This document shows, one piece after another, positions 30,687 through 47,342 of a DNA stretch of 59,605 nt. Source of the DNA: Actinomycetes bacterium (lineage in GTDB: Bacteria; Actinomycetota; Actinomycetes; S36-B12; GCA-2699445); assembly GCA_022599915.1 (NCBI GenBank), contig JAHZLH010000033.1:1-59605 (forward strand), given 5' to 3'. Position 1 is the stretch's first letter. Every line of letters begins with the position of its first letter. The notes beneath the pieces are model-generated. The model was not told the DNA's origin. It did no database searches and worked only from the letters and a program-made list of their open reading frames with translations. The translations under genes were made by a program, and so were the position numbers.

Positions 30687-32246
30687 TCACCGCAAGAAAA
30701 TGTCCGCCTGCGCCGCCCAATCCAACACCGGTTGCGGGAAAACTCCGAGAACCAGGGTGACTGCAACACCCAAGGCGATCGCAGTCCGGCTGAAACCGGA
30801 CGGCACCGCGACGGACGGCCCATCACCCACCGGATCGGACAGGAACATCACCACAACGACGCGGATGTAGAAGAACGCAGCGATCGCAGAAGCAAGCACA
30901 GCCAGGAGTACTAGCCAGCCTTCGCCGGCAGCAGCGGCAGCAGCGAACACTGAGAACTTGCCGATGAACCCAGCGGTCAGCGGTATACCTGCAAACGACA
31001 GCAAGAACAGCGCAAACGCGCCTGCCAGCCAGGGATTAGTCCGGCCCAGACCACGCCAATTCTCCAGCGCAGTATTCTCCCCGGTGTCGTCGCGGACCAA
31101 CATCACCACACCGAAAGCACCAACCGTCGCCAACCCGTAGGTAACGAGGTAGAACATGGTGGCAGCGAGACCTTCTGGTGTCACCGCGATGACTCCCAAC
31201 AGCAGGAAGCCGGCGTGCGCAATCGAGGAATAGGCCAGCATGCGCTTGATGTCGTTTTGCACCAAAGCGACGATCGAGCCCGCAAAGAAGGTGAGGGCCG
31301 CGATGACCCAAAACGCTGGTCGCCAATCCCAACTTGATCCAGCAAATGCCACATACATCAATCGCAGCAGCGCACCAAACGCCGCCACCTTGACGCCAGC
31401 GGCCATGAAGCCGGTGATTGGCGTCGGCGCACCCTGATAGACGTCCGGCGCCCACGAGTGGAACGGCACTGCCGCCACCTTGAAGAGCATGCCAACCGCG
31501 ATCATCGCGATCCCGCCCAGCAGTAGTCCGCTGGTCTGCGGCTGAGCGGTGATCTGTTCGGCGATGCCGCCGAGGTTCACCGTCCCGGCAAACCCGTAGA
31601 CCAGTGCCGCACCGTAGAGGAAGAAGGCCGAGGAGAACGCTCCCAGCAGGAAGTACTTCAGCGCGGACTCTTGGCTCAGCAGTCGACGCCGCCGCGCCAT
31701 CCCAGCCAGCAGATACAGTGGCAAACTCATGATTTCTAATGCCACGAACATCGTCAGCAAGTCATTGCTCGCCGGGAAGAGCATCATGCCGCCCACGGCG
31801 AAGAGGAACAGGGGCCACACTTCCGTCTGCAAATAGCCGCGCGCAGTGAACTGACGTTCGTCCTCAGAGCCCGGCATAGCCGAGGCACGGGCAGCAAACG
31901 CGTCACCGCTCGGGTCGATCTTACGTTCCGCCATAGTTAGCGCCGCTAGCAACGACACCAGCAAAATGCCGCCCTGCAAGAACAGCGCCGGGCCGTCCAC
32001 GACTGCGGCTCCCGCGACAACTGGGCCACCTGAGCCGGCGGCGAGTACGACCAGCACAAACGCCACGATCAGCGACGCAAATGTCAGCGTCAGCTGCACT
32101 GGACGACGAGCGTCCCGTGGCATGAACGCCTCAATCAGCACCCCAATCGCGGCTGCGCCCATTACAACCGCCATGGGACCGAGCAGCACCCAGTCCAGTT
32201 CCGGCATCTCGATGGGAGGGAACTCCTCCAACGGCAAGCCGATCAT
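30687..32246 (-). CDS. nuoN: NADH-quinone oxidoreductase subunit N
   Basis: Antiporter-like membrane subunit of complex I, 519 residues with about 14 hydrophobic segments. ALEIMSLPLYLLAG carries the TM5 glutamate; HSWAPDVYQGAPTPITGFMAAGVKVAAFGALLRL is the conserved TM7-8 block with its lysine. The C-terminus has LPLTAGFIGKF-like sequence (IPLTAGFIGKFSVF). ATG 32246 overlaps the nuoM stop by four bases. Last gene of the nuo operon. Confidence 0.96.
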   Translation of the reverse strand: MIGLPLEEFPPIEMPELDWVLLGPMAVVMGAAAIGVLIEAFMPRDARRPVQLTLTFASLIVAFVLVVLAAGSGGPVVAGAAVVDGPALFLQGGILLVSLLAALTMAERKIDPSGDAFAARASAMPGSEDERQFTARGYLQTEVWPLFLFAVGGMMLFPASNDLLTMFVALEIMSLPLYLLAGMARRRRLLSQESALKYFLLGAFSSAFFLYGAALVYGFAGTVNLGGIAEQITAQPQTSGLLLGGIAMIAVGMLFKVAAVPFHSWAPDVYQGAPTPITGFMAAGVKVAAFGALLRLMYVAFAGSSWDWRPAFWVIAALTFFAGSIVALVQNDIKRMLAYSSIAHAGFLLLGVIAVTPEGLAATMFYLVTYGLATVGAFGVVMLVRDDTGENTALENWRGLGRTNPWLAGAFALFLLSFAGIPLTAGFIGKFSVFAAAAAAGEGWLVLLAVLASAIAAFFYIRVVVVMFLSDPVGDGPSVAVPSGFSRTAIALGVAVTLVLGVFPQPVLDWAAQADIFLR

Positions 32247-33805
32247 GGCTGGCTCCCCTCGGCGACGGGACTCATTACAGTTTCCGGATCAGTCGACCCG
32301 GTCCATTCCAGGGTGTTAGCGACGGCTGGTTCCAAGACATCCAACACCGGAGCCGGGTAGAAGCCAAGGAATACCACCAAAGCGATAATCGGGGCGAGTA
32401 CCCAGCGTTCCCGCAGGTTCAGATCTGGCATTCCCCGCACTTGCTCCGTTTCCGGGCCAGTCATGGTGCGCTGGTACAGCAGCAAGACGTATAGCGCAGC
32501 GAAAACGATGCCCAGCGTGGCGCCCGCCCCCAACCAGGGGCTGACGGTAAAGGCACCCAGCAGCACCAGGAACTCGGAGACGAAGGTGCTCAAACCAGGC
32601 AGCGCCAGCGCCGTTAGTCCGGCGATCAGGAACATGCCGGCCAACACCGGTGCCGGTTTCACCACACCACCGTAGTCAGCCACGTTGGCAGACTTCCGCC
32701 GCACAATCATGAACCCAGCCACCATGAATAACAACGCGGTGCTGAGGCCGTGACCCAGCATGTAGAGCCCAGCCCCGACCTGACCCTGCGACGTGAAGAC
32801 AAAGATGCCCAGGGTGATGAAGCCGAAGTGCGAGATCGACACATAACCGAAGAGTCGCTTCATGTCGGTCTGGCCGATCGCGGCCAACGCGCCGTAGAAG
32901 ATACCGATGACCGACACCGCAATGATGATCGGGGCATAGGTTTGCGAAGCTTCCGGGAACAGCGGCAGACAAAGCCGCAGCATGCCATAGGTGCCGATCT
33001 TGTCGAGCACCCCGATCAACAGCACGGCCGTGCCCGGGGTTGACGAACCGGCAGCATCCGGCAACCAGGTATGTACCGGCCACAGTGGGGCTTTAATCGC
33101 GAACGCGAGGAAGAAGCCCCAGAACATCAGGTTCTCCAGCACCGGGTCCATGTCCATACCGATCAGTTCCGGCAGGTACAACGTCGGGGAGCCCAGCGTT
33201 TCGGAGGCGACGAACCACAGCATCACCAATGCGGCCAGCATGACCAGGCCACCAGCGAGGCTGTAGATCAGGAACTTCACCGACGCATACGTGCGCCGAC
33301 CAGTGCCATAGCGACCGATCATGAAGTAGACCGGAATCAGGATGGCCTCAAATAAGAAGTAGAACAGGAAGACATCCAGCGCCACGAAGACGCCGATCAT
33401 CATCGTTTCCAGCAGCAGCACCAACGCGAAGTAGCCGCGAACCGATCCGGGCTTTTGCTTGTCGGTAGTGGGAAGCCCAGCGGTATCTTCCACGTCATTC
33501 CAACCGGCGATGATCACCAGTGGTACCAGCAGCGTGGCAAGGAAGACCAAGACTAGGGCCAAGCCGTCAACACCGACCGAGTAGGTCAATCCCAGCGACG
33601 GGATCCACTCGTGGCTCTCGACTAACTGGTAGGTGGCCGAAGAGGAGACGTCATATTGGGTGATGGCGTACACCCCAACACCGAAGGTGGCAACGGCGAA
33701 GAACAGCGCAATCTGCTTAGCCCGAGCAGCACTTTGTCCAGAACCAAATGCAACGACCAGTGAGCCGATAAGTGGGACAAGAGCCAGAATCGTCAAGGTA
33801 CCCAT
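32243..33805 (-). CDS. nuoM: NADH-quinone oxidoreductase subunit M
   Basis: Antiporter-like proton-pumping subunit, 520 residues from ATG 33805, which overlaps the nuoL stop by one base (TGATG). FYFLFEAILIPVYFMIG contains the TM5 glutamate; HTWLPDAAGSSTPGTAVLLIGVLDKIGTYGMLRL is the TM7-8 block, with the actinobacterial LDKIG variant. LPGLSTFVSEFLVLLGAF marks the later helices. A GTG 9 bp upstream is an alternative start. Confidence 0.96.
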   Translation of the reverse strand: MGTLTILALVPLIGSLVVAFGSGQSAARAKQIALFFAVATFGVGVYAITQYDVSSSATYQLVESHEWIPSLGLTYSVGVDGLALVLVFLATLLVPLVIIAGWNDVEDTAGLPTTDKQKPGSVRGYFALVLLLETMMIGVFVALDVFLFYFLFEAILIPVYFMIGRYGTGRRTYASVKFLIYSLAGGLVMLAALVMLWFVASETLGSPTLYLPELIGMDMDPVLENLMFWGFFLAFAIKAPLWPVHTWLPDAAGSSTPGTAVLLIGVLDKIGTYGMLRLCLPLFPEASQTYAPIIIAVSVIGIFYGALAAIGQTDMKRLFGYVSISHFGFITLGIFVFTSQGQVGAGLYMLGHGLSTALLFMVAGFMIVRRKSANVADYGGVVKPAPVLAGMFLIAGLTALALPGLSTFVSEFLVLLGAFTVSPWLGAGATLGIVFAALYVLLLYQRTMTGPETEQVRGMPDLNLRERWVLAPIIALVVFLGFYPAPVLDVLEPAVANTLEWTGSTDPETVMSPVAEGSQP

Positions 33806-35772
33806 CAGAACCACCGCGCAATCACGAAAACAACGCCAATGATGACCGCACCAGCCACCATAGATAGCGCGTAGGATCTGGCGAACCCGGTTTGGACTCG
33901 CCGTAGGAATTCGCCAGCGCTGCTGAACCAGCCCGCAAAGCCGCGTACCGCACCGTCAATGACTGAGTTGTCGAACCACACCAGCCACCGCGTCAGGTAC
34001 TGGCCAGGCCGCATGAATACTGCCTCGTTGAAGGCGTCGTCGTACAGCGAGTTCCGAGCTGCCACGGTGAGCGCAGAAACCTGCTGTGGCGGCTGCTGTG
34101 GCACCGGTCGGGTCGCGTATTGCCGCCAAGCGAGGAAGATACCGGTCGCGACAATGGCCAATGTGGAAAGCTCAAGTGCCCAATCGGGGATCGGTATTTC
34201 GAAGGGTTGGAAACCGGTGACTGGTTCGAGCCACCCGACGATGTCGCCGACGTAGACGAAGAACAACCCACCGAACAGCGCACCCACCGAGAGCAACAGC
34301 ATCGGGATAGTCATCACGCTGGGCGACTCGTGTGGATCCGCGTCTTCTTTCCACCGCTTGTCGCCGAAGAAGGTCATCGCCAGCATCCGCGTCATGTAGA
34401 AGGCCGTGAGACCTGCGGCCGCCATCGCAGCCACACCCGCGAACCAGTTCGTTCCCAGGGCGGCCTTGATGATGTCGTCCTTGGAGAAGAAGGAGTCAAA
34501 TGGCGGCAACCCGCTGATGCCCAAGAAACCGCAGAAGAAGGCGATAGTGGTGACCAACATGACTTTTCGCAGTGCGCCATAGAAGCGCATGTCCTTCTCA
34601 TCCTTCATACCGTGCATGACCGAGCCAGCACTGAGGAAGAGGTCCGCCTTGAACATGCCGTGCATCAGCAGGTGGAAGATGGCAAACACATATCCGGCGG
34701 GGCCGAGACCTGCAGCGACGAACATGTAGCCAATCTGGCTCATCGTCGAACCGGCCAGCGCCTTTTTGATTTCGTCCTTAGCGCAGGCGATGACCGCACC
34801 GGCGACCATCGTGATAATGCCGACGGCAAGGACGACCGTGACTGCGACCGTCGCCAGATCAAAGATCGCGTTGCTGCGCACAATCAGGTAAACACCGGCT
34901 GTCACCATGGTGGCCGCGTGAATCAACGCCGAGACCGGAGTGGGCCCCTCCATCGCGTCCAGCAACCATGCCTGCAGCGGGAACTGCGCACTCTTACCAA
35001 CTGCTGCTAGCAGCAGCGTCAGCCCAATCAGGTTCAGCGCGGTATCACTGGCTTCCGGCGCTGACTCGAAGACGGTTTCGAAGGTGACGCTGCCGAAGGT
35101 GACGAACATCAGCATCACCGCGATGCTCAAACCGACATCACCGACGCGGTTCATGACGAAAGCCTTCTTAGCCGCAACCGCCGCACTGGACTTGTACTGC
35201 CAGAAGCCGATCAGCAGGTACGACGCGAGACCGACACCTTCCCAGCCGACGTACAGCAGCAAGTAGTTGTTGGCCAGTACCAGCAGCAGCATCGCTGAGA
35301 CGAACAGATTCAGGTAGGCGAAGAACTTTCGCCGATCTGGATCTTCCGCCATATAGCCGATCGAGTAGATATGAATCAGCGAACCGACCCCGGTGATCAG
35401 CATGACGAACACCATCGACAATGGGTCGAGCCGCAGCGCGAACGGCACATCGAAGGCGCCCGCGAAGGTCCAGTCCCACAGGTCGATCGTGACTAGCCGC
35501 TCATCGACGGGGGCACCCATCATTTGGCTCAGCAGCAGACAGGCCAAAATGAAGGAGCCGATCGGCAGCAGACACGCCAGGATATGTCCCCAGGAGTTCG
35601 TGCGGCGCCCACCAATCAGCAGCACTGCCGCGCCGAAGACCGGCAGAGCAATCAGCAGCCACATGTAGGGGAAGTAACCACCAGCAGCCGCCGCAGTGAT
35701 GGTCTCTTGGATAGGTTCTACCGGTTCGGTAGGAAGTTCGGACAGGGGCAATGCCACAGAGGAGGTTGTCAT
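33805..35772 (-). CDS. nuoL: NADH-quinone oxidoreductase subunit L
   Basis: Largest antiporter-like subunit, 655 residues. NNYLLLYVGWEGVGLASYLLIGFW contains the TM5 glutamate; AMEGPTPVSALIHAATMVTAGVYLIVR is diagnostic of NuoL; FFSKDDII follows. The C-terminal third holds the stretch corresponding to the lateral helix and final transmembrane helix (SMVAGAVIIGVVFVIARWF). It starts 3 bp after nuoK ends. Confidence 0.97.
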   Translation of the reverse strand: MTTSSVALPLSELPTEPVEPIQETITAAAAGGYFPYMWLLIALPVFGAAVLLIGGRRTNSWGHILACLLPIGSFILACLLLSQMMGAPVDERLVTIDLWDWTFAGAFDVPFALRLDPLSMVFVMLITGVGSLIHIYSIGYMAEDPDRRKFFAYLNLFVSAMLLLVLANNYLLLYVGWEGVGLASYLLIGFWQYKSSAAVAAKKAFVMNRVGDVGLSIAVMLMFVTFGSVTFETVFESAPEASDTALNLIGLTLLLAAVGKSAQFPLQAWLLDAMEGPTPVSALIHAATMVTAGVYLIVRSNAIFDLATVAVTVVLAVGIITMVAGAVIACAKDEIKKALAGSTMSQIGYMFVAAGLGPAGYVFAIFHLLMHGMFKADLFLSAGSVMHGMKDEKDMRFYGALRKVMLVTTIAFFCGFLGISGLPPFDSFFSKDDIIKAALGTNWFAGVAAMAAAGLTAFYMTRMLAMTFFGDKRWKEDADPHESPSVMTIPMLLLSVGALFGGLFFVYVGDIVGWLEPVTGFQPFEIPIPDWALELSTLAIVATGIFLAWRQYATRPVPQQPPQQVSALTVAARNSLYDDAFNEAVFMRPGQYLTRWLVWFDNSVIDGAVRGFAGWFSSAGEFLRRVQTGFARSYALSMVAGAVIIGVVFVIARWF

Positions 35773-35775
35773 GGG

Positions 35776-36075
35776 TCAGTTCCTCAGCAAGTGGGGCTCG
35801 TCGACTGACACCGACCTGCGGGTCCGGAAAATGGTCATGATGATCGCCAGCCCGACGACCACTTCAGCCGCAGCAACGATCATCACGAAGAATGCGATGG
35901 CTTGACCCTCCAGGTTCCCGTGCATCCGAGCGAAACTCACAAAAGCCAGATTGGCAGCATTCAGCATCATTTCCACGGACATGAACACCACGATGGCGTT
36001 GCGTCGCAACAGCACCCCTAGTCCGCCCAGGCAGAAAAGGATCGCCGACAAGATGATGTAGTTTGTCGGATCCAT
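35776..36075 (-). CDS. nuoK: NADH-quinone oxidoreductase subunit K
   Basis: 99-residue membrane subunit with three helices. [44 protein letters not shown] contains the conserved membrane glutamate of VEMMLNA, and [18 protein letters not shown] carries the second. ATG 36075 overlaps the nuoJ stop by one base. Confidence 0.97.
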
Positions 36076-37034
36076 CAGCGATCACCCCCGTCGCGGCCAT
36101 CTTGCCCGTTGTCATCGTTCTCGCTGCGACCCGCTTCATCCGCTCGCTCCGTCTGCGGATCCTCATGTCCACTGATCGGATCGAGAACTTCAGGACGCTC
36201 CGTCTCTTCACCCGCAGCGATCGAGCGTACCTCGTCCACATCGGCTTCGATTTCTTCCGGTTGATCGGCGATCCGAGAGTGGACAGTGCCGCGCAGTGGG
36301 GTGGGAATAGACAGGTCGCTGGGACTGCCATCTGGCAGCAGAGCTGGCGTACCGATGGCGTTGCTGGAGGCCAAGACTCCCGGATTGGGTAGGACACCCG
36401 GATGTTCCCCAGTGTCCTTGTATCGCTTCATACGCAACACGGATTGTTCCGGCTGGCCCAACTTGGGTGACCAGCGCTCTCGATGGGCAAGCACCACCGC
36501 ACCGACCCCAGCGGTGATGATCAGGGTGGCGACTACCTCCAGGGCAAGCAGGTAGGTGGTGAACATCTGTCGGGCCAGTCCCTCGACGTTGCCGCCGTAT
36601 TCCGCGTTAGCTTCTGCCAACCCGACGGAGGTGAAGCCGACCATGGCCGCACCGATAGCGCCAATCAGCAAGATGCCAAAGCCCACGATCAGCAGTACCG
36701 CTGCCCAACGTTGTCCCTTGAGGGTTTCGACCAGGGAGTCCGAGGAGTCGACACCCACCAGCATCAAGACGAACAGGAACAGCATCATCACCGCTCCCGT
36801 GTAAACGATGATCTGCACAAGTCCCAGGAAGGGGGCATCATTGAGTATGAAGAGGACTGCCAAGCTGATCATCGTGACGGCAACAGAAAGTGCACTGTGA
36901 ACCGTTTTGCGAGAAAACACCAGCCCGAACGCCCCAAGGACGCATAGCGTGGCGCAAATCCAAAACGTGACTTCTTCCCCCATCGAGGATTCCGCTTCGC
37001 CAGTTTCGGCCACTACCAGCAGCAACTGCCTCAC
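36075..37034 (-). CDS. nuoJ: NADH-quinone oxidoreductase subunit J with long hydrophilic C-terminal tail
   Basis: Membrane subunit of complex I. About 190 residues form five helices, including [25 protein letters not shown]. The remaining 125 or so are hydrophilic and acidic (rich in Glu, Asp, Pro), predicted disordered. E. coli NuoJ is about 184 residues; actinobacterial ones often have a tail. Start 37034 overlaps nuoI by four bases; an internal ATG at residue 18 (MGEEVTFW) is possible. Confidence 0.93.
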
Positions 37035-37627
37035 CGCGAGGCCTCCGCTTCCGCTGCTGCTTCTTCTTGATCAGCTGCCTCATTGGCGGCCGCTTCCGCG
37101 AACTGCTGCTCAGTAGCACCCGTGACTGTGCCTTCGTAGTAGTCCTTTTCGTCGGTGCCCGGGACCATCTCGTGCGGTGGCTGCGCCATTCCGTCTTGCA
37201 GTGGCGCCAACAAATCCTGCTTCTCGAAGATCAGTTTCTCTCGCGAGTTGTCAGCCAGCTCGTAGTCGTGGGTCATGGTCAACGCACGAGTGGGGCAGGC
37301 CTCAATACATAGTCCACAGAAGATGCAGCGCAGGTAATTGATTTGGTACACCCGGCCGTAGCGCTCGCCGGGCGAGAACCGCTGGTCGGTGCTGTTGTCC
37401 GCACCTTGCACGTAGATGGCGTCTGCCGGGCAGGCCCAAGCGCACAGTTCACAGCCGATGCACTTCTCCAGCCCGTCAGCGTGCCGATTCAGTTGATGCC
37501 GACCGTGGAAGCGCGGCTTCGGCGGGTACTTGTCCTTCTCCTCGGGGTACTGCTCAGTGTTGACCTTCTTGAACATCGTCGAGAAGGTCACCCAGAACCC
37601 ACTCAGGGCGGGGGGTAGATCAGGCAT
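37031..37627 (-). CDS. nuoI: NADH-quinone oxidoreductase subunit I
   Basis: Peripheral-arm subunit carrying the last two [4Fe-4S] clusters before N2. [12 protein letters not shown] and [12 protein letters not shown] are both intact, with the usual [14 protein letters not shown] lead-in. 198 residues from ATG 37627 ([19 protein letters not shown]), which overlaps nuoH by 8 bases. A C-terminal tail of about 35 residues is Ala/Glu-rich. Confidence 0.96.
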
Positions 37628-38948
37628 CGGAGACCTCCGGTTTGTCGTCGTCGTCCTCAGCCGACCCATCTGTCACAGCTCCTGCGGTTGCCGGAACTGG
37701 CTTACGCACTCGGGGAGTGTAGTCAAAGGTCTGCCCTGGAAGTGGCGGTACCGGGAAGGCGCCGTCATCCGCGTCGGCCAACGACTCGGGCATGGGCTCC
37801 TTTTCGTCGATGACTTTGGAGCCCTTCACCCAAATCGAGGCGATCAGCACCAGCATCACCACTACTGCGATGGCGCCACCGACAACCACCCCGTCCAGAT
37901 CCAGGTTGTACTCTTCGCGCACCACCCGAACGACAGACACCAATACGATCCAAATCAGTGAGACCGGGATCAGTACCTTCCAGCCGAACGCCATGAATTG
38001 GTCGTAGCGGAACCGTGGCAACGTTCCCCGCAGCCAGATGTACATGAAGATGAATAGCATCACCTTGCCGAGCCACCACAGCATTGGCCACCAACCTTCG
38101 TTGGCGCCCGGGATCAGCGAGATCGGCCACGGTGCCAGCCAGCCACCAAGGAACAGCGTCGTGGCCACGGCAGAAACCGTCACCATGTTGATGTACTCCG
38201 CGAGGAAGAACATGGCGAACTTCAACGAGGAGTACTCCGTGTGGAAGCCACCCACCAACTCCGACTCCGCTTCCGGCAAATCGAAGGGGGCCCGGTTGGT
38301 CTCGCCGACCATGGAAGTCACATAGATCACGAAGGACGGCGCCAGCAGTACCGCAAACCACAAGTTGGCCTGCGAGGCAGTGATCTGCGAGGTGGACATG
38401 GTCCCGGCGTAGAGGAATACCGCGACGAAGGACAAACTCATCGAAATCTCATACGAGATCATCTGGGCGCTAGAACGAAGGCCACCTAGTAGCGGGTAGG
38501 TGGAACCGCTGGACCAACCTGCCAGCACAATGCCGTAAATCCCGATGGAAGCTACTGCCAAGACATACAGCACCGACTGGGGGAAGTCCGTCAACTGCAG
38601 TGGGGTTATGACGCCGAACATGGAGACTTCTGGGCCAAACGGAATCACTGCAAACGCGGCAAATGCTGTGGTCGCCGACAGCGCTGGCGCGATCCAATAG
38701 ACCGCCTTATGCACGGTTGTGGGAATGATCTCTTCTTTGAGCGCTAGTTTCACGCCGTCCATCAGCGACTGCAGCAGCCCGAACGGTCCAGTCCGGTTCG
38801 GGCCGATCCGCATCTGCATCCGAGCCACGACCCGACGTTCTGCCCAAATGGTGAACAGCACCAGCAGCACCAAAATGGCGAAGACACCGACAGTCTTGAT
38901 GCAGACCAACCAGAAAGGGTCGTTGCCGAAAGCAGACAACTCGGGCAT
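37620..38948 (-). CDS. nuoH: NADH-quinone oxidoreductase subunit H
   Basis: Membrane subunit forming the quinone entry channel, 442 residues with about eight helices. Diagnostic blocks are [32 protein letters not shown] and [28 protein letters not shown] hydrophilic tail of about 60 residues follows the last helix. ATG 38948 overlaps the nuoG TAA by one base. Confidence 0.96.
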
Positions 38949-41422
38949 TACTTTTCACCCCTTTCAAGCCGCACCGTAGCGCCCGGCAGGGCCGCAAGAC
39001 TCACCATCACCTGCGAGTTCAACGAATTTGTCGGAACCCAGACCACTCCATCGGGCATTTCGGTCAATTCGACGGGCAGCGAGATCGCTCCGTTGTCGGT
39101 CGCAATACGTAGCGCGTCGCCTTCACCCACTCCTGCGGTGGCTGCGGTACCAGCGCTGATTCGGGCGACCACCGGTTTGCGGGTACCCGCCAAATGCGGC
39201 TCGCCTTCCTGCATGACGCCCAAGTCCAACAACTGCCGCCAGGACGCCAGAACCGCTTCACCGGCACCGGGAGTCGCTGCGGCGCCCGCGGGCACATCTG
39301 CGGCTGGGACCCGATCGCCCTGCCAGGCACCCAAGTTGCCCAACTCGGTGCGTAGCGCATCCACCTCTCGGGGGGACGGCTCGAGATCGAGGTAATCGCT
39401 CAGCATGGACAACACCACTGCGTCGCTGAAACTCGTCGGTTGCGGCATAACCGCGCCGAACGGTCGACGGCGGCCTTCCCAGTTGACGAAAGCGCCAGCC
39501 TTCTCGGTAACCACCGCAACCGGCAAAACGACGTCGGCACGTGAGGTGACTTCGCTGTGCCTGGTCTCCAGCGAGACAAGGAACGGTGTAGCCTCCAGCG
39601 CGGTCAAGAGTTCGTCAGCGTCCGCGATATCAGCAGGTTCAACCCCCGCCACGAGTAGCGCCCCAATGCCAGGTGTGAACGAGGTGTCGTTATCGGCAGC
39701 ATCGTCGCTATCGGTACCGGCAGCGTGGGCTGCGGCCGCGGCCACGTCGTCATGGATTTGCGCCACCACACCAGCCAGACTGCGACCAGGCTGCTGCGGC
39801 AGGTCGTCGGCATCGATACCCCACAACTCAGCGACTTCCGCTCGGGCAGTGGCATCGGTCAGTGGGCGGCCACCGGGCAATAACCCTGGCAGGCAGCCGG
39901 CATCGAGTGCACCGCGCTCCCCCGCCCGGCGAGGCACCCAAGCCAGTTCGGCACCGGTGCGCTCCGCCAACCGCTGCAGCGCAGCGAAGGCGCCAACTTC
40001 GGTGGCTGCACGCTCACCGACCAAGATGACGGCTCCCGGCTGCGACAGTTGGGAAACGGTGTCGTCGATCAGACCGTCCAGGGTGGCTGCGAGCCCACCC
40101 GGAACGCTCTCGATGAGTGAGCCGGACATCTTGTCCAGTCCCTCGGTGCGGAACGGGGCGGCGGCGAATACTTTGGTGCCAGTCCGAACTGCCTTGCGGA
40201 GCCGCAAGTAGATGATCGGCGACTCCTCCTCCGGCTCTAGCGCAGCCAGCAGCACTGCGGGGGCGTCTTCCAGCTCGCGGTAGACCGGTCCGCAACTACC
40301 CGCCACCTGATGGGCTAGGAAGGCTGCTTCCTCGTCGCTGGCGGGGCGGGCCCGCATGTCGATGTCGTCGGTGCCCAGCGCAACCCGCGCGAACCGCGCA
40401 TAGGCGTAGGCGTCCTCCATAGTTAGCCGACCACCGGTCAGTACCGCAGTTCGGCCTGCCGCAGCCGCAAGTCCGTCGGCGGCAACCCGGAGAGCTTCCG
40501 GCCACGAGGCATTGCGCCACTGGCCGTTCTCCCGGATCAGCGGTTGCGTGATCCGGTCTTGGGACAGGTACGGGAAGGCGAACCGCCCCTTATCGCAGTT
40601 CCACTCCTCATTAACTTCGGGATCGTCACCGGACTGCCGCCGCATGACATTGTCGTGCCGGTAGTCGGTACGCATCGCACAGCCGGACGCGCAATGTTCG
40701 CAGGTGGTAGGAACACTCACCAGATCGAATGGCCGTGAACGGAAGCGGTATTCCTCCGAGGTCAGCGCACCCACGGGACAGATTTGGATTGTGTTGCCGG
40801 AGAAGTAGGAATCAAACGGCTCTTCGCCGACACCCACCTGTTGCTGCGCACCACGCTCAAGCAGAGCGATGAATGGGTCACCAGCGATCTGTTCGGCAAA
40901 CCGGGTGCAGCGGGCGCAGGACACGCAGCGTTCCCGGTCCAACAAAATCTCGGAACTGACATTGATTGGTTTGGGGAACTCCCGCTTAGCACCGGTGAAG
41001 CGCGACTCCGACCGACCCACGCTCATCGCCTGATTTTGTAGCGGACATTCGCCGCCCTTGTCACAGACCGGGCAGTCCAGTGGATGGTTGATGAGTAAGA
41101 ACTCCATCACACCTTTTTGCGCGGTAGCAGCAATCTCACTGGTGACTTGGGTCTTGACCACCATGCCGTCGTTAAGCGGTACCGCGCAGGAAGGCTGCGG
41201 CTTGGGCATGCCTTCAACGTCCACCAAGCAGGCCCGGCAAGCGGCAACGGGATCCAGCAGGGGATGGTCACAAAATCGCGGTACCTCTACACCCATGAGT
41301 TCAGCCGCCCGGATGATCATGGTGCCTTTGGGCACCGTGACCTGAGTGCCGTCAATGGTTGCGGTGATCATCTCCACCGGCGGTGCATCTTGTCCGGTCG
41401 CTTCGTGTGACGTGGTGCTCAT
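38948..41422 (-). CDS. nuoG: NADH-quinone oxidoreductase subunit G
   Basis: Large iron-sulfur subunit, 824 residues. N-terminal [2Fe-2S] ferredoxin domain with [21 protein letters not shown] and PSCAVP; then [17 protein letters not shown] (the His/Cys-ligated cluster); [18 protein letters not shown] with CPVGAL; then CEHCASGC in the molybdopterin-oxidoreductase-like domain, which is catalytically inert in this family. The C-terminus has an aspartate-decarboxylase-like domain ([19 protein letters not shown]). It overlaps nuoF by four bases. Confidence 0.95.
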
Positions 41423-42741
41423 ACCTTCGCTCCCGTCAGACTGGGAATCACCATGGTCGCGCTTGGGTCGAAGACTTCATCCGGATTTTGACTGGTGGCT
41501 GCGGTGAACTCGTCACGGAAGAATTTCAGCGCTGCCGGGTACGGTGTCGCGGCGGCATCACCGAGGGCGCAAAACGATCGACCCATGATTTGGTCACAAA
41601 GTTCCACGAGCTCTTTCACTTCCGGTTCGCTGCCGCGACCGTCCGCGAACTTCTTCAGCGTGCCGGTGATCCAGTAGGTGCCTTCGCGACAGGGAGTGCA
41701 TTTACCGCAGGATTCGTGCTTGTAGAACTCCAGCCAGCGGGTGATTGCCTTCACCACGCTGGTGGTCTCATCAAAGACCATGGGAGTACCGGTGCCCAAC
41801 ATCGAGCCGGCTTCCACCATGTCCTCGTAGGTCATCGGAATGTCCAGCTGGTCTTCGGTCAGCAGCGGAACGCTCGACCCGCCCGGTACCCAGAACTTCA
41901 GGCTGTGGCCGTCTCGCACACCACCGGCGTAGTCGAGCAACTCTCGCATGGTGATACCCAGTGGCGCTTCGTAGATTCCCGGCCGATTGACGTGGCCAGA
42001 GACAGCCCAAACTTTGAAACCCGGTGACTTCTCGGTACCGAAGCCGCGATACCAGTCCACCCCGTTTTTCAGGATGTAGGGAATCGAGGAAATCGTCTCC
42101 ACGTTGTTGACCACTGTGGGTGAGGCGTACAGCCCTGCTACCGCGGGAAACGGCGGCTTCAACCGCGGTTGGCCACGACGGCCCTCCAGCGAATCCAACA
42201 GTGCCGTTTCCTCGCCGCAAATGTAGGCTCCCGCACCGCTGTGAACCACGATGTCGAGATCTAGATCCGACCCGAGAATCTTCTTGCCCACGAAGCCAGC
42301 AGCACGTGCCTGTTCCACAGCGTTGCGGACATGCCGGATCGGATGCGGTACCTCGCCACGGATGTAGATAAAGGCGTGATTGGCCCGAATCGCATGGCAG
42401 GTCATGATGATGCCCTCAATGAGTGCATGCGGGTTCGCCAGCATGATCGGGATGTCTTTGCAGGCACCCGGTTCCGATTCGTCGGCGTTAATCACCAGGT
42501 AGTGCGGTTTACCGTCGTTTTGTGGAACAAAACTCCACTTCAACCCGGTGGGGAAACCAGCACCACCGCGGCCTCGCAGGCCGGATTCTTTGACGGTCTC
42601 GATGACCTCGTCTGGATCGGTCTTCAAGACTTGATCGAGGGCCGAGTAGCCGCCGTGGCTGCGGTAACTGTCGATGTCCCACGGCTTGTCATCGTCCCAG
42701 TGAGCAGTGATCACCGGGGTGAGTTTCGTCTTAGCCATCAC
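41419..42741 (-). CDS. nuoF: NADH-quinone oxidoreductase subunit F (NADH and FMN binding)
   Basis: Entry point for NADH electrons, 440 residues. [13 protein letters not shown] (about 56-68) is the FMN/NADH glycine-rich site; [19 protein letters not shown] follows; the [4Fe-4S] ligands are in [16 protein letters not shown] and [10 protein letters not shown]. Start overlaps nuoE by four bases. Confidence 0.97.
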
Positions 42742-43385
42742 TTCACCATCCCGTCCGCGCCGTCTTGGGCGCGGGCCGCTTTCAGCCCGGCCAACATCAA
42801 CTCGTCGACTCCGCCGCCTTCATCTGCTAGGCCGTCATCTAGGCCCGACACCGTGCGTTCCGCCGCCCGCCAACCGCGCACTGCTGGTCCGCGACTGGGA
42901 AGCACCTCTTCGCCGGCAGTGAGCCGGTCAATGACATCGATCGCCTCAGCGATCGTCGTGCGATCGAAGAACTCCCAATCCACCGTCATCACCGGCGAGT
43001 GGGTACAGGCTGCCTGACACTCGATCCGCTCCAACGTGAACTTGCCGTCCTCGGTGGTCTCGTTGTGCCGGACGCCCAACTTCTCTGAGAGCGCGTCGTA
43101 GATGGCGTCCCCACCCAGCAGTCCGCAAGCAGTGTTCACACAGACACCGATGTGGTGTTCCCCACCCGGGCTACGAAGTCGGTACATCGTGTAAAAGCTG
43201 GCTACCGCGGTGACCTCGGCAGTGGAAAGTTCCAGAATTTCCGCAGAGGCTTCGATTACTTCAGAGTTCACCATGCCGGTCTCCGACTGCATCAGGTGCA
43301 GCATCGGTACCAGCGCCGATCTCGCCTGCGGATAGCGACCGGCCAACTCTCGACTTTCCGCCATGATTTGGTCACTGAGGCTCAT
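42738..43385 (-). CDS. nuoE: NADH-quinone oxidoreductase subunit E
   Basis: [2Fe-2S] subunit, 215 residues, thioredoxin-like. The ligands are in [11 protein letters not shown] and [10 protein letters not shown], the expected C-x5-C and C-x3-C pattern. A C-terminal extension of about 55 residues, Ala/Gly/Asp rich, goes beyond the E. coli protein. It overlaps nuoD and nuoF by four bases each. Confidence 0.95.
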
Positions 43386-44698
43386 CGATCCACCCCTCCC
43401 ATCACCGGGTCAATCCCGGCAACGGACGCGATGACATCCGAAACCATGCCACCTTCGCTCATCGCGGGAACTGCCTGCAGATTGGCGAACGACGGATCGC
43501 GGAAGTGGACCCGATGCGGCCGAGTACCGCCGGTACTCACGACATGAACGCCCAGTTCACCCCGGGGGGACTCCAGTCGCGCGTAGACCTGACCAGCGGG
43601 AACCCGGAAGCCTTCGGTCACCAACTTGAAGTGGTGAATCAACGCTTCCATCGATTCGCCCATGATCTTGCGAATGTGCTCCAAAGAATTACCCATGCCG
43701 TCGGAACCAATCGCGAGCTGGCTAGGCCAGGCGATCTTCTTGTCGGCCACCATCACCGGTCCAGGCCGGAGCCGATCGAGGCACTGCTCGACAATATTGA
43801 GCGATTGCTCCATTTCGGCGAGCCGGATCAGGAATCGACCGTAACTGTCGCATGTGGTCTGAGTCGGCACCTCGAAATCATAGGTCTCATAACCGCAGTA
43901 CGGATCAGTCTTGCGAACGTCATGCGGCAAGCCGGTGGCTCGCAGCGTCGGACCGGAAATCCCGAGAGCCATGCAACCCTCGAGGTCCAGATAACCGATG
44001 CCCTGAGTGCGTGCCATCCAGATCGCGTTGTCGACGAGCAGGTCAGAAGTGTCTTTGAACCGCTTACGCAATTCCACCAGAGTTTCCGCGATCTTCTTCT
44101 CGGTGCCGTCGGGGAGATCTTGTGCCAGGCCTCCTGGGCGAATGTAGGCGTGATTCATGCGCAGACCGGTGATGATTTCAAAGAGGTCCAACACAATTTC
44201 GCGCTCACGGAAGCCGAAGATCATGGCGGTGAGTGCACCTAGTTCCAGCCCACCAGTGCCCAGCGCAACCAAGTGCGACGACACCCGGTTCAACTCCATC
44301 ATCATTACCCGAAGCACCGTGGCTCGTTCCGGGATTTCGTCGGTGATTCCCAGTAACTTCTCCACGCCGAGGCAGTAGGCAGTTTCGTTGAAGAAGGGAC
44401 TCAAGTAGTCCATTCGCGTCACGAAGGTACAGCCCTGCACCCAGCTGCGGTACTCCAAGTTTTTTTCGATCCCGGTATGCAAGTAGCCGATACCTGCACG
44501 GGCCTCGATAACCGATTCCCCTTCGATCTCCAGAATGAGCCGCAACACCCCGTGGGTGGAGGGATGCTGCGGACCCATATTGACCACGATTCGCTGCTTC
44601 TCACCCTCGGGTGCAGGCAATACCGTCTGCCAATCATTGCCGGTGACGGTGTAGGCAGCATCGACTGGATCGTCGAAGTTCAAGGTGCTGTCGGACAT
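43382..44698 (-). CDS. nuoD: NADH-quinone oxidoreductase subunit D
   Basis: Quinone-site subunit, 438 residues from ATG 44698 ([10 protein letters not shown]), whose ATG overlaps the nuoC TGA by one base. Contains [21 protein letters not shown] (quinone-binding His), [18 protein letters not shown] and the C-terminal [25 protein letters not shown]. Homologous to [NiFe]-hydrogenase large subunits, but without their metal cysteines. A longer frame to 44803 lies inside nuoC and is rejected. Confidence 0.97.
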
Positions 44699-45438
44699 CA
44701 GTTGTACCCCCTTCTTTCGTCTGGGGGAGGCACGGTGGCTCCTTTGTACTCCACCCCGACTCCGTTCAGCGGATAATCCTTGCGTTGCGGGTGACCCGCC
44801 CAATCATCAGGCATCAAGATTCGGGTCAGCGCTGGATGGCCGTCGAAAATGATGCCGAACATGTCGAAAGTTTCTCGCTCATGCCAGTCATTCGTGGGGT
44901 AGAGCGGAACGATCGACGGGATGTGCGGATCATCGTCTGGGCACGACACCTCCACTCGCAGCGAGCGATTGTGAGTGATCGAGGTCAAGTGATAGACGGC
45001 GTGTAGCTCCTTGCCGGTGAAGTCCGGGTAGTTCACTCCGGAGACCCCCGAACACCACTCAAAGCGCAGTGCCGGCTCGTTGCGTAGCGATGCGGCCACA
45101 GCCAGCAGATGTTCGCGACGCACGTGATAAGTGATCTCACCGTGTTCGATCACTATCCGTTCAATCGCCTCAGTGGCGGGCACGCCAGCGTCTGTCAGCG
45201 CGAGTTCCAGTTCGTCGGTGACCTCATCGAACCAGCCGCCAAACGGACGTGTTGCTGCGGGCGCAGTCTCGAGAACTTCCACCAGACCGCCGAAACCAGA
45301 TGTGTCACCCGTGCCAGCGACGCCGAAGGAGCCGTGGCGGACTTCCACGACCTCTGGGGCGCCCTGCTGCGACCCGGTGACCTGCTGGCCGGCCGGGGAT
45401 TCCGTTGCGTCGGGTGTCGGGGTGTCGTCTGCGCTCAT
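44698..45438 (-). CDS. nuoC: NADH-quinone oxidoreductase subunit C
   Basis: 30-kDa-type peripheral subunit, 246 residues. The family block [38 protein letters not shown] is in the C-terminal half. The first 55 or so residues are a Pro/Thr/Gly-rich extension, common in actinobacterial NuoC and absent from E. coli. It overlaps nuoB by four bases and nuoD by one. Confidence 0.96.
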
Positions 45439-45989
45439 CGCAGCAGACCCTTCTGATCGATGGTGGGCACCGCTACCAACGCTTCCTTCTCGAGTTCCCG
45501 AACTTCCTGAGTTCGATCGGTGCCGAGTTTGCTGGCCTGCACCTCAGCGTGCAGTTTCAAGATGGCGTCGAGCAGCTGTTCGGGGCGCGGCGGGCAGCCC
45601 GGCAAGTAGATATCCACCGGAATCACGTGATCAACGCCCTGCACGATGGCGTAGTTGTTGAACATGCCACCGCTCGACGAGCAGGCGCCCATTGAGATAA
45701 CCCACTTGGGGTTGGGCATTTGGTCGTATACCTGTCGCACTACCGGCGCCATTTTTTGACTTACGCGCCCGGCAACGATCATCAGGTCCGCCTGGCGCGG
45801 CGAGGGCCGGAACACTTCCATGCCGAACCGAGCCAAGTCGTAGCGACCAGCGCCAGTTGCCATCATCTCGATCGCGCAGCAGGCCAACCCGAAGGTGACC
45901 GTCCACATCGAGTTCTTGCGGGCGTATCCCGCAACACCTTCAACGGTGCTGAGCAGGAATCCGGAGGGGAGTTTCTCTTCTAGTCCCAT
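45435..45989 (-). CDS. nuoB: NADH-quinone oxidoreductase subunit B
   Basis: Carries the terminal [4Fe-4S] cluster N2. 184 residues with [14 protein letters not shown] (tandem Cys), [18 protein letters not shown] and [13 protein letters not shown], all four ligands present. Starts 1 bp after the nuoA stop. Confidence 0.97.
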
Positions 45990-45990
45990 A

Positions 45991-46350
45991 TCAATCCCAA
46001 TCTAGTCCGCCCCGTCGCCATTCGTAGACGTACGGGATCGTCAGGTTGAACAGGAAGAGCAGGATCGCCGCCAACCCGAACATTCCGAGTTGGTCCGAAG
46101 CGACCGCCCACGGGTAGAGGAACACGATCTCCAAGTCGAAGATGATGAACATCATGGCCGTCAGGTAGTACTTCACCGGGAACTTGCCGCCGCCCATGGG
46201 CTGTGGTGTCGGCTCGATGCCGCACTCATAGGCGTCAACTTTTGCCCGGTTGTAGCGCTTCGGCCCGGTGAAGGAGGTCACTGTCACTGAGAACAGTGCG
46301 AACAGCAGTCCGAGCGCTGCGAGCGTCAGAACCGGAATCCAGACGTTCAT
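45991..46350 (-). CDS. nuoA: NADH-quinone oxidoreductase subunit A
   Basis: First gene of the nuo operon. 119-residue membrane protein with three helices; [20 protein letters not shown] and [18 protein letters not shown] are the family signatures. ATG 46350 is chosen because GAGGAG lies 9 nt upstream; a TTG 9 bp further upstream abuts that site and is too close. Confidence 0.96.
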
Positions 46351-46383
46351 GCGGCGCAACTCCTCTTCCGGACGATCGCGCTC

Positions 46384-46389
46384 ATCCTA
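46384..46389 (-). promoter_or_regulatory. Possible -10 element for the nuo operon
   Basis: TAGGAT on the minus strand, 34 bp upstream of the nuoA ATG and followed by a purine-rich start region and the GAGGAG site. No good -35 is seen at 17-18 bp spacing. This is the best promoter candidate in the 237-bp gap between menG and nuoA. Confidence 0.35.
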
Positions 46390-46455
46390 GAGCGATCATG
46401 TCTCGGTTGGCGTGTTAGCGCACGCTGGGCCGCCGTCTTTGGCACACCTACCCTT

Positions 46456-46469
46456 GTGAATCGATTCAC
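46456..46469. promoter_or_regulatory. Crp/GlxR-like palindrome upstream of nuoA
   Basis: GTGAATCGATTCAC is a perfect 14-bp palindrome about 106 bp upstream of nuoA. Read with one more base each side it is TGTGA-ATCGAT-TCACG, one mismatch from the Crp-type consensus TGTGA-N6-TCACA that Crp/GlxR regulators use in actinobacteria. Its centre is about 85 bp upstream of the start implied by the -10 candidate. Confidence 0.55.
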
Positions 46470-46587
46470 GAGGCCCGAGTCTAGTAGTGGCAGCGTGGCT
46501 TCGGGCGACGACCCGCAAACTGCCTGCGGAATAGCTTGCGGTATGGCCACTACGCGGTGATTTCGGCAGCTGCGGTAGCCGTTTTCG

Positions 46588-47286
46588 CTAGTTCCCCGGT
46601 TGCCAGGCACGATGTAGCGCCACGATGCCACCTGTGAGATTGCGGAACTGGACGTCGCGCCAACCGTTGCTCGCGATCAACTCCGCTAGGGCTGCTTGGT
46701 CTGGCCATGCCTGGATGCTTTCCGCGAGATAGACATACGCCTCCGGATTGGAAGCCACCTGTCGAGCGATCTGCGGCAGTGCTGCCATCAGATACTCCAA
46801 GTACACCCGCCGAAACCGCGGATCCGTGGGGGCAGAAAACTCGCACACCACCAATCGGCCACCGGGTCGCGTTACCCGGGCGAGTTCCCGCAACCCAGCC
46901 GCTGAGTCCACGATGTTGCGCAGCCCGAACGAGATAGTGGCGGCATCAAAGGTGTTGCTGGCGAAGGGCAACTCAAGTGCGTCGCCGGCGACGAAGGCGC
47001 GATTAGGTTGCCGTCGCTGGCCTTCGCGCAACATGCCGACGGAGAAGTCACAGCAAATAACGTCAGCACCAGCAGCGGCTAGTGGCGAACTGCTTGTTCC
47101 GGTTCCCGCCGCCAAGTCGAGTATTCGCTCGCCGGGTTCCGGAGCTATCGCGGCTGCCACCGCTCGTCGCCACGCCCACGTTTGTCCCAGCGATAAAACA
47201 TCGTTAGTTACGTCATAGCGGCGGGCTACCCCGTCAAACATTGCCGCTACTTCGCGGGGATCCTTGTTCAAACTGGCTCGGCTCAC
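46588..47286 (-). CDS. menG: Demethylmenaquinone methyltransferase
   Basis: SAM-dependent C-methylation, the last step of menaquinone synthesis (MenG/UbiE family). 232 residues from GTG 47286 ([34 protein letters not shown]), the standard actinobacterial opening. SAM motif [16 protein letters not shown] and the UbiE signatures FGLRNI and [15 protein letters not shown] are present. TTG 47298 is a possible alternative. It is divergent from menF across a 56-bp gap. Confidence 0.94.
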
Positions 47287-47342
47287 AGCCTGATCCAATC
47301 ATCGACGATGCCGACTGTCGAACTCGGCCTTACCCTTGAGAT

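Follow-up and report, generated by a model that had tools for sequence, protein, structure and literature searches.

The nuo locus and the palindrome upstream of nuoA

The window, that is, the whole stretch of 59,605 nucleotides that was analyzed (contig JAHZLH010000033.1 of an Actinomycetes bacterium, assembly GCA_022599915.1), belongs to a genome assembly of 2.44 Mb in 75 contigs with a completeness of 98.65%. All fourteen nuo genes, A to N, were found in consecutive order, and the site described here is located between menG and nuoA, both of which are on the minus strand (Table 1). At this position, the initial annotation had described a perfect 14-bp palindrome lying approximately 106 bp before nuoA and one base away from the Crp consensus. 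The palindrome was borne out by our inspection as GTGAATCGATTCAC at 46456-46469, and the distance to nuoA was also correct (about 105-106 bp, with the nuoA start at 46350). The slightly longer segment TGTGAATCGATTCACG (window 46455-46470) showed one mismatch to TGTGA-N6-TCACA, the E. coli Crp consensus, and thus agreed with it at 9 of 10 bases, as had been stated.

Rex is a repressor that senses the cellular NADH level. On the nuoA strand, TCGTGAATCGATTCACAA (46471-46454) agrees with the actinobacterial Rex operator at 13 of its 14 specified bases; the consensus, TTGTGAA-N4-TTCACAA, is given in a study of Streptomyces avermitilis (PMC5355995). The rarity of the palindrome alone revealed nothing beyond chance, as seven perfect 14-bp palindromes were present in the window compared with 5.2 expected, and the Crp-like matches across the window (up to two mismatches) numbered 12, below the shuffle mean of 22.85. 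The exact pattern GTGAA-N4-TTCAC was found at three places in the genome, compared with 1.1 expected from base composition: upstream of nuoA, upstream of serA (contig C45), and within a transporter gene (contig C15), where it probably occurs by chance. Since the sequence by itself does not exceed chance, the case for the nuoA site rests on the comparison across genomes described below.

Table 1. Features of the nuo locus and the additional predicted Rex-type site upstream of serA.
Feature	Position	Strand	Basis and remarks
nuoA, first gene of the controlled operon	45991..46350	minus	NF005922, 192.9 bits, cut-off 155
nuoB to nuoN, in order downstream	30687..45989	minus	NCBIfam for B, C, D, E, F, G, H, I, L, M, N; Pfam for J, K
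menG (demethylmenaquinone methyltransferase), upstream of the site	46588..47298	minus	NF001241, 378.9 bits, cut-off 327
Rex operator (predicted), 18 bp	46454..46471	minus	TCGTGAATCGATTCACAA in nuoA sense; perfect 14-bp core 46456-46469; sequence, conservation, co-occurrence with Rex
P1 -10-like element TAGACT	46478..46483	minus	Predicted start about 46472-46470; TANNCT conservation
P2 -10-like element TAGGAT, putative Rex-independent promoter	46384..46389	minus	Kept in 6/7 aligned family members
Second full Rex-type site (predicted)	L124:4811-4828 (G000:C45)		TCGTGAAACGGTTCACAA; 56 bp before the matched serA start

Rex and the distribution of the nuoA site across the order

A rex gene was identified in this genome (G000:C52, 5054-5197), where it adjoins hemA and hemC. 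The encoded protein scored 313.2 bits against the curated model NF003992 (cut-off 226) and could be aligned to solved Rex proteins along the DNA-binding and NAD-binding stretches, and a scan of viral contigs using this Rex protein found no relative. No operator was found upstream of either rex or cydA in this genome, the best match having 5 of 14 mismatches in each case. Upstream of rex in the relatives, matches with up to 3 mismatches out of 14 were present in 13 of the 30 examined, several of which resembled TTGTGC-N4-GTTCACAA.

We compared 60 genomes of the order, of which 56, this one included, contained an identifiable nuoA; these comprised 45 genomes with Rex and 11 without, and the four genomes in which nuoA was not found (G001, G041, G047 and G048) were excluded from this tally. 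Read in the nuoA sense, the upstream regions recurrently contained (C/A)GTGAA-N4-TTCACA. Of the 56 genomes, 27 had exact GTGAA-N4-TTCAC no more than 300 bp upstream of nuoA, compared with 0.03 of 56 on average when 30 base-shuffled sets were searched, and all 27 were among the genomes with Rex (27/45 with Rex, 0/11 without). The flanks of these 27 exact cores were also conserved: the second base ahead of the core was T in 26 of 26, and the second base behind it was A in 26 of 27. When the exact pattern GTGAA-N4-TTCACA was sought within 1.8 kb upstream of nuoA, it was found in 38 of the 45 Rex-containing genomes and in none of the 11 Rex-less genomes (p = 2e-7). Ten of these 38 sites were 1.4-1.5 kb away from nuoA; in G010, the one distant-site genome that was checked, a gene of the geranylgeranyl reductase family lies between the site and nuoA. 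As related genomes are not independent, the labels were also shuffled within families, and none of 200,000 shuffles gave an association of site and Rex as extreme as the one observed. The Rex-less genomes are spread over four families (f1, f3, f5 and f7). Throughout the genomes, exact GTGAA-N4-TTCACA was counted 93 times compared with 26 reversed-pattern controls in 49 genomes with Rex, and once compared with five controls in the 11 genomes without Rex.

In seven of the 45 Rex-containing genomes, the 1.8 kb before nuoA lacked an exact site; one of these is G008, in which nuoA is located on a contig end piece. Among the Rex-less genomes, G029 showed a one-mismatch match 118 bp upstream of nuoA. 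Some rex genes may have been missed, since only 4 of the 11 genomes scored as Rex-less are at least 90% complete. A survey of named actinobacterial nuoA loci, which overlaps the order survey in that several loci come from the same genomes, revealed matches with three or fewer mismatches among the 14 bases in 51 of 79 loci, while the reversed pattern matched in 1 of 79; this count covers sites up to 1490 bp upstream and 79 of 80 loci, as L159 has only 12 bases before nuoA and was excluded.

Two minor features were observed in these alignments. In relatives of families f5 and f6 (e.g. G011, G034 and G019), a half-site-like GCGCAA or GCACAA is present approximately 5 bp past the operator, with C in 23 of 27 and A in 19 of 27 sequences in two columns; it may represent a second Rex half-site and is not evident in the genome studied here. 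Three Rhodococcus loci (L158, L164 and L204) had no good Rex operator before nuoA and carried degenerate TGTG...CTCACA palindromes 88-96 bp upstream.

Assignment of the nuoA site and a proposed mechanism

The 26 nt upstream of the operator contained a TANNCT element in 25 of 26 genomes, compared with a shuffle mean of 1.8 and with 1 of 76 windows further upstream; G028 was left out of this count, as its 300-bp window had no room upstream. A simple sigma-70 scan of positions 46300-46700 found no promoter, and no recognisable -35 element accompanies the P1 -10 element. Since the -10-like TANNCT stands directly upstream, the operator is predicted to lie at about +1 to +18. In view of its sequence and distribution, the site very probably is an operator for Rex, the repressor that responds to NADH, and coincides with the predicted start point of P1, the promoter of nuoA-N. 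Repression by Rex was favoured over activation by Crp/GlxR because the inner AA/TT and the flanks are fixed, the site co-occurs with Rex, Crp-type proteins are present in site-less Rex-less genomes, and a conserved -10 element is adjacent.

The initial annotation had read the site as a Crp/GlxR-like site, at a distance compatible with upstream activation. That the site is an operator regulating a respiratory operon was correct, and the genome does have a Crp-family gene; what most likely has to be revised is the regulator and the direction of control. The absence of any Crp-family regulator had been named as evidence against that reading; one such regulator was found (ORF L009:1402-2088), and the single PF00027 protein of the genome has a Crp helix-turn-helix. 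According to the Crp/GlxR explanation, this protein would bind TGTGA-N6-TCACG and place nuo under the control of cAMP. Together with the agreement at 9 of 10 consensus bases and the presence of the gene, this explanation can draw on the eight occurrences of TGTGA-N6-TCACG in this genome compared with none of the reversed-pattern control, although two of the eight are of the Rex type. Effects of Crp on nuo also exist elsewhere, since deletion of crp1 in Mycobacterium smegmatis is reported to raise nuo expression 7- to 14-fold (PMC12713383). Nevertheless, we consider it very unlikely. Crp fails to explain the site, since a cNMP-binding (PF00027) domain is encoded in each of the 11 Rex-less genomes, yet the exact site is missing near nuoA in all of them, an argument that is strong but not absolute because PF00027 includes non-Crp proteins and draft assemblies miss genes. 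Conversely, two genomes (G007 and G025) have the nuoA site, and no cNMP-binding domain was found in them. The inner AA/TT, which is free in the Crp consensus, was invariant in the collected exact Rex cores, as it is by construction. In addition, a search of 30 loci for GTGA-N6-TCAC with up to two mismatches revealed no second class of conserved site, and TGTGA-N6-TCACA with up to one mismatch showed no clear enrichment in this genome (25 compared with 21 reversed-pattern controls). Crp/GlxR sites (TGTGA-N6-TCACA) resemble the nuoA site in their GTGA/TCAC half-sites and 6-bp spacer but differ from it in that the presence of the nuoA site tracks Rex and not Crp. Taking all these points together, Crp/GlxR was rejected as the main regulator.

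As another possibility, Rex may be the main regulator of a shared site whose outer half-sites, common to the two motifs, also allow Crp to bind, with carbon and redox signals in competition; the palindrome matches the Rex as well as the Crp consensus, and the genome has a gene for each protein. We regard it as rather improbable, since conservation tracks Rex rather than Crp and none of the results requires Crp. That the palindrome arose by chance and has no function would agree with the expected frequency of such palindromes in the window, but its half-sites, orientation and promoter spacing are conserved across the order, leaving this explanation with a negligible probability. The Rex assignment corrects a plausible but misleading Crp reading; the Rex and Crp consensus sequences are nearly alike, and comparing genomes with and without Rex separates the two kinds of sites.

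A repressor bound at this position, about +1 to +18, would block initiation or early elongation. By analogy with Rex in other species, from which binding, the NADH response and repression are carried over to this genome, Rex would occupy the operator and block one of these steps at a low ratio of NADH to NAD+. An increase in NADH, such as may occur at low oxygen, would release Rex, so that complex I would be made and would re-oxidise NADH. The TAGGAT element nearer nuoA may provide Rex-independent basal transcription; it is also kept in the Rex-less genomes G005 and G006. A third Rex-less genome (G003) has no TAGGAT and carries TAGGCT at the place of P1, beside a poor operator remnant. The operon is likely to be served by a Rex-controlled P1 and a basal P2, each with a predicted start site. 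The transcript start proposed in the initial annotation, about 85 bp from the site, probably belongs to this second promoter-like element (46389-46384).

Rex binding upstream of nuoA1-N1 was demonstrated in S. avermitilis by gel shift, ChIP and DNase I footprinting (PMC5355995), and the predicted operator described here adds to this known control of nuoA by Rex. The two systems are alike in the operon, the motif and the location of rex beside hem genes (PMC5355995). In S. avermitilis, however, the -35 region is covered by the nuoA1 operator (-42 to -16; PMC5355995), whereas the operator here is predicted at about +1 to +18. The position of our site is closer to that of the S. avermitilis cydA1 operator, which covers the start point or the bases immediately following it (protection from -3 to +25) but controls cytochrome bd instead of complex I (PMC5355995). 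Another difference is that rex and cydA1 carry operators in S. avermitilis (PMC5355995), while none was found at rex and cydA of this genome. We found no literature on Rex in Nanopelagicales. With the nuoA site, redox control of complex I becomes open to testing in a lineage known here only from assembled environmental genomes and its relatives.

Predicted Rex-type sites upstream of serA and WhiB-family genes

Away from nuoA, 55 sites were listed; 20 stretches containing 23 of them were inspected, and neighbouring genes were named for part of these. In this genome, the predicted second full Rex-type site precedes serA (Table 1) and is located directly upstream of a -10-like TACACT. Among the genomes in which serA was found, the site was present within 500 bp in 19 of 45 with Rex and in none of 7 without Rex (p = 0.04); in particular, it was absent from the Rex-less genomes G005 and G006. 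This tally includes serA matches with E values up to 1e-100 (52 of 60 genomes) and retains G022, G041 and G042, in which the match begins inside the gene; G041 (398 bp) was scored as a hit. G007 is outside the tally, as it has no serA match; its site follows the same neighbour gene, where the contig ends. The link of serA to Rex is weaker than that of nuo because family f5 has no serA site (0/11 Rex-containing genomes).

The serA product, 3-phosphoglycerate dehydrogenase, normally makes NADH. Release of serA by high NADH would therefore be paradoxical. As a Rex target, serA is not new in itself, since it was predicted as such in Caldicellulosiruptor (PMC8579813) and in Clostridium acetobutylicum (PMC3828012). 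The Rex-type site before serA on contig C45 resembles the sites given in these two reports; those are predictions in Firmicutes, whereas the present site comes from an order of actinobacteria, in which it is paired with nuo. In this order, serA is predicted to be a conserved second Rex target, and its pairing with nuo is the more interesting by-product of our analysis.

Tentatively, and at somewhat less than even probability, the Rex regulon of this aquatic actinobacterial lineage may have shrunk to a core of nuo and serA, with a WhiB gene added in a sister genus and with rex and cydA released from control. In that case, respiration would be coupled to the supply of serine and one-carbon units through one NADH sensor, and nuo would be run from the Rex-free second promoter in lineages that lose Rex.

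A further full Rex-type site was found in two relatives, 43-55 bp upstream of a WhiB gene (G004:C154, L253:1519; G007:C303, L255:1551). In both genomes, the WhiB gene encodes 83 aa and adjoins a HisKA_2 histidine kinase gene. Among the Rex targets described for S. avermitilis is wblE, also a gene of the WhiB family (PMC5355995), and the WhiB-gene site of the two relatives resembles this target.
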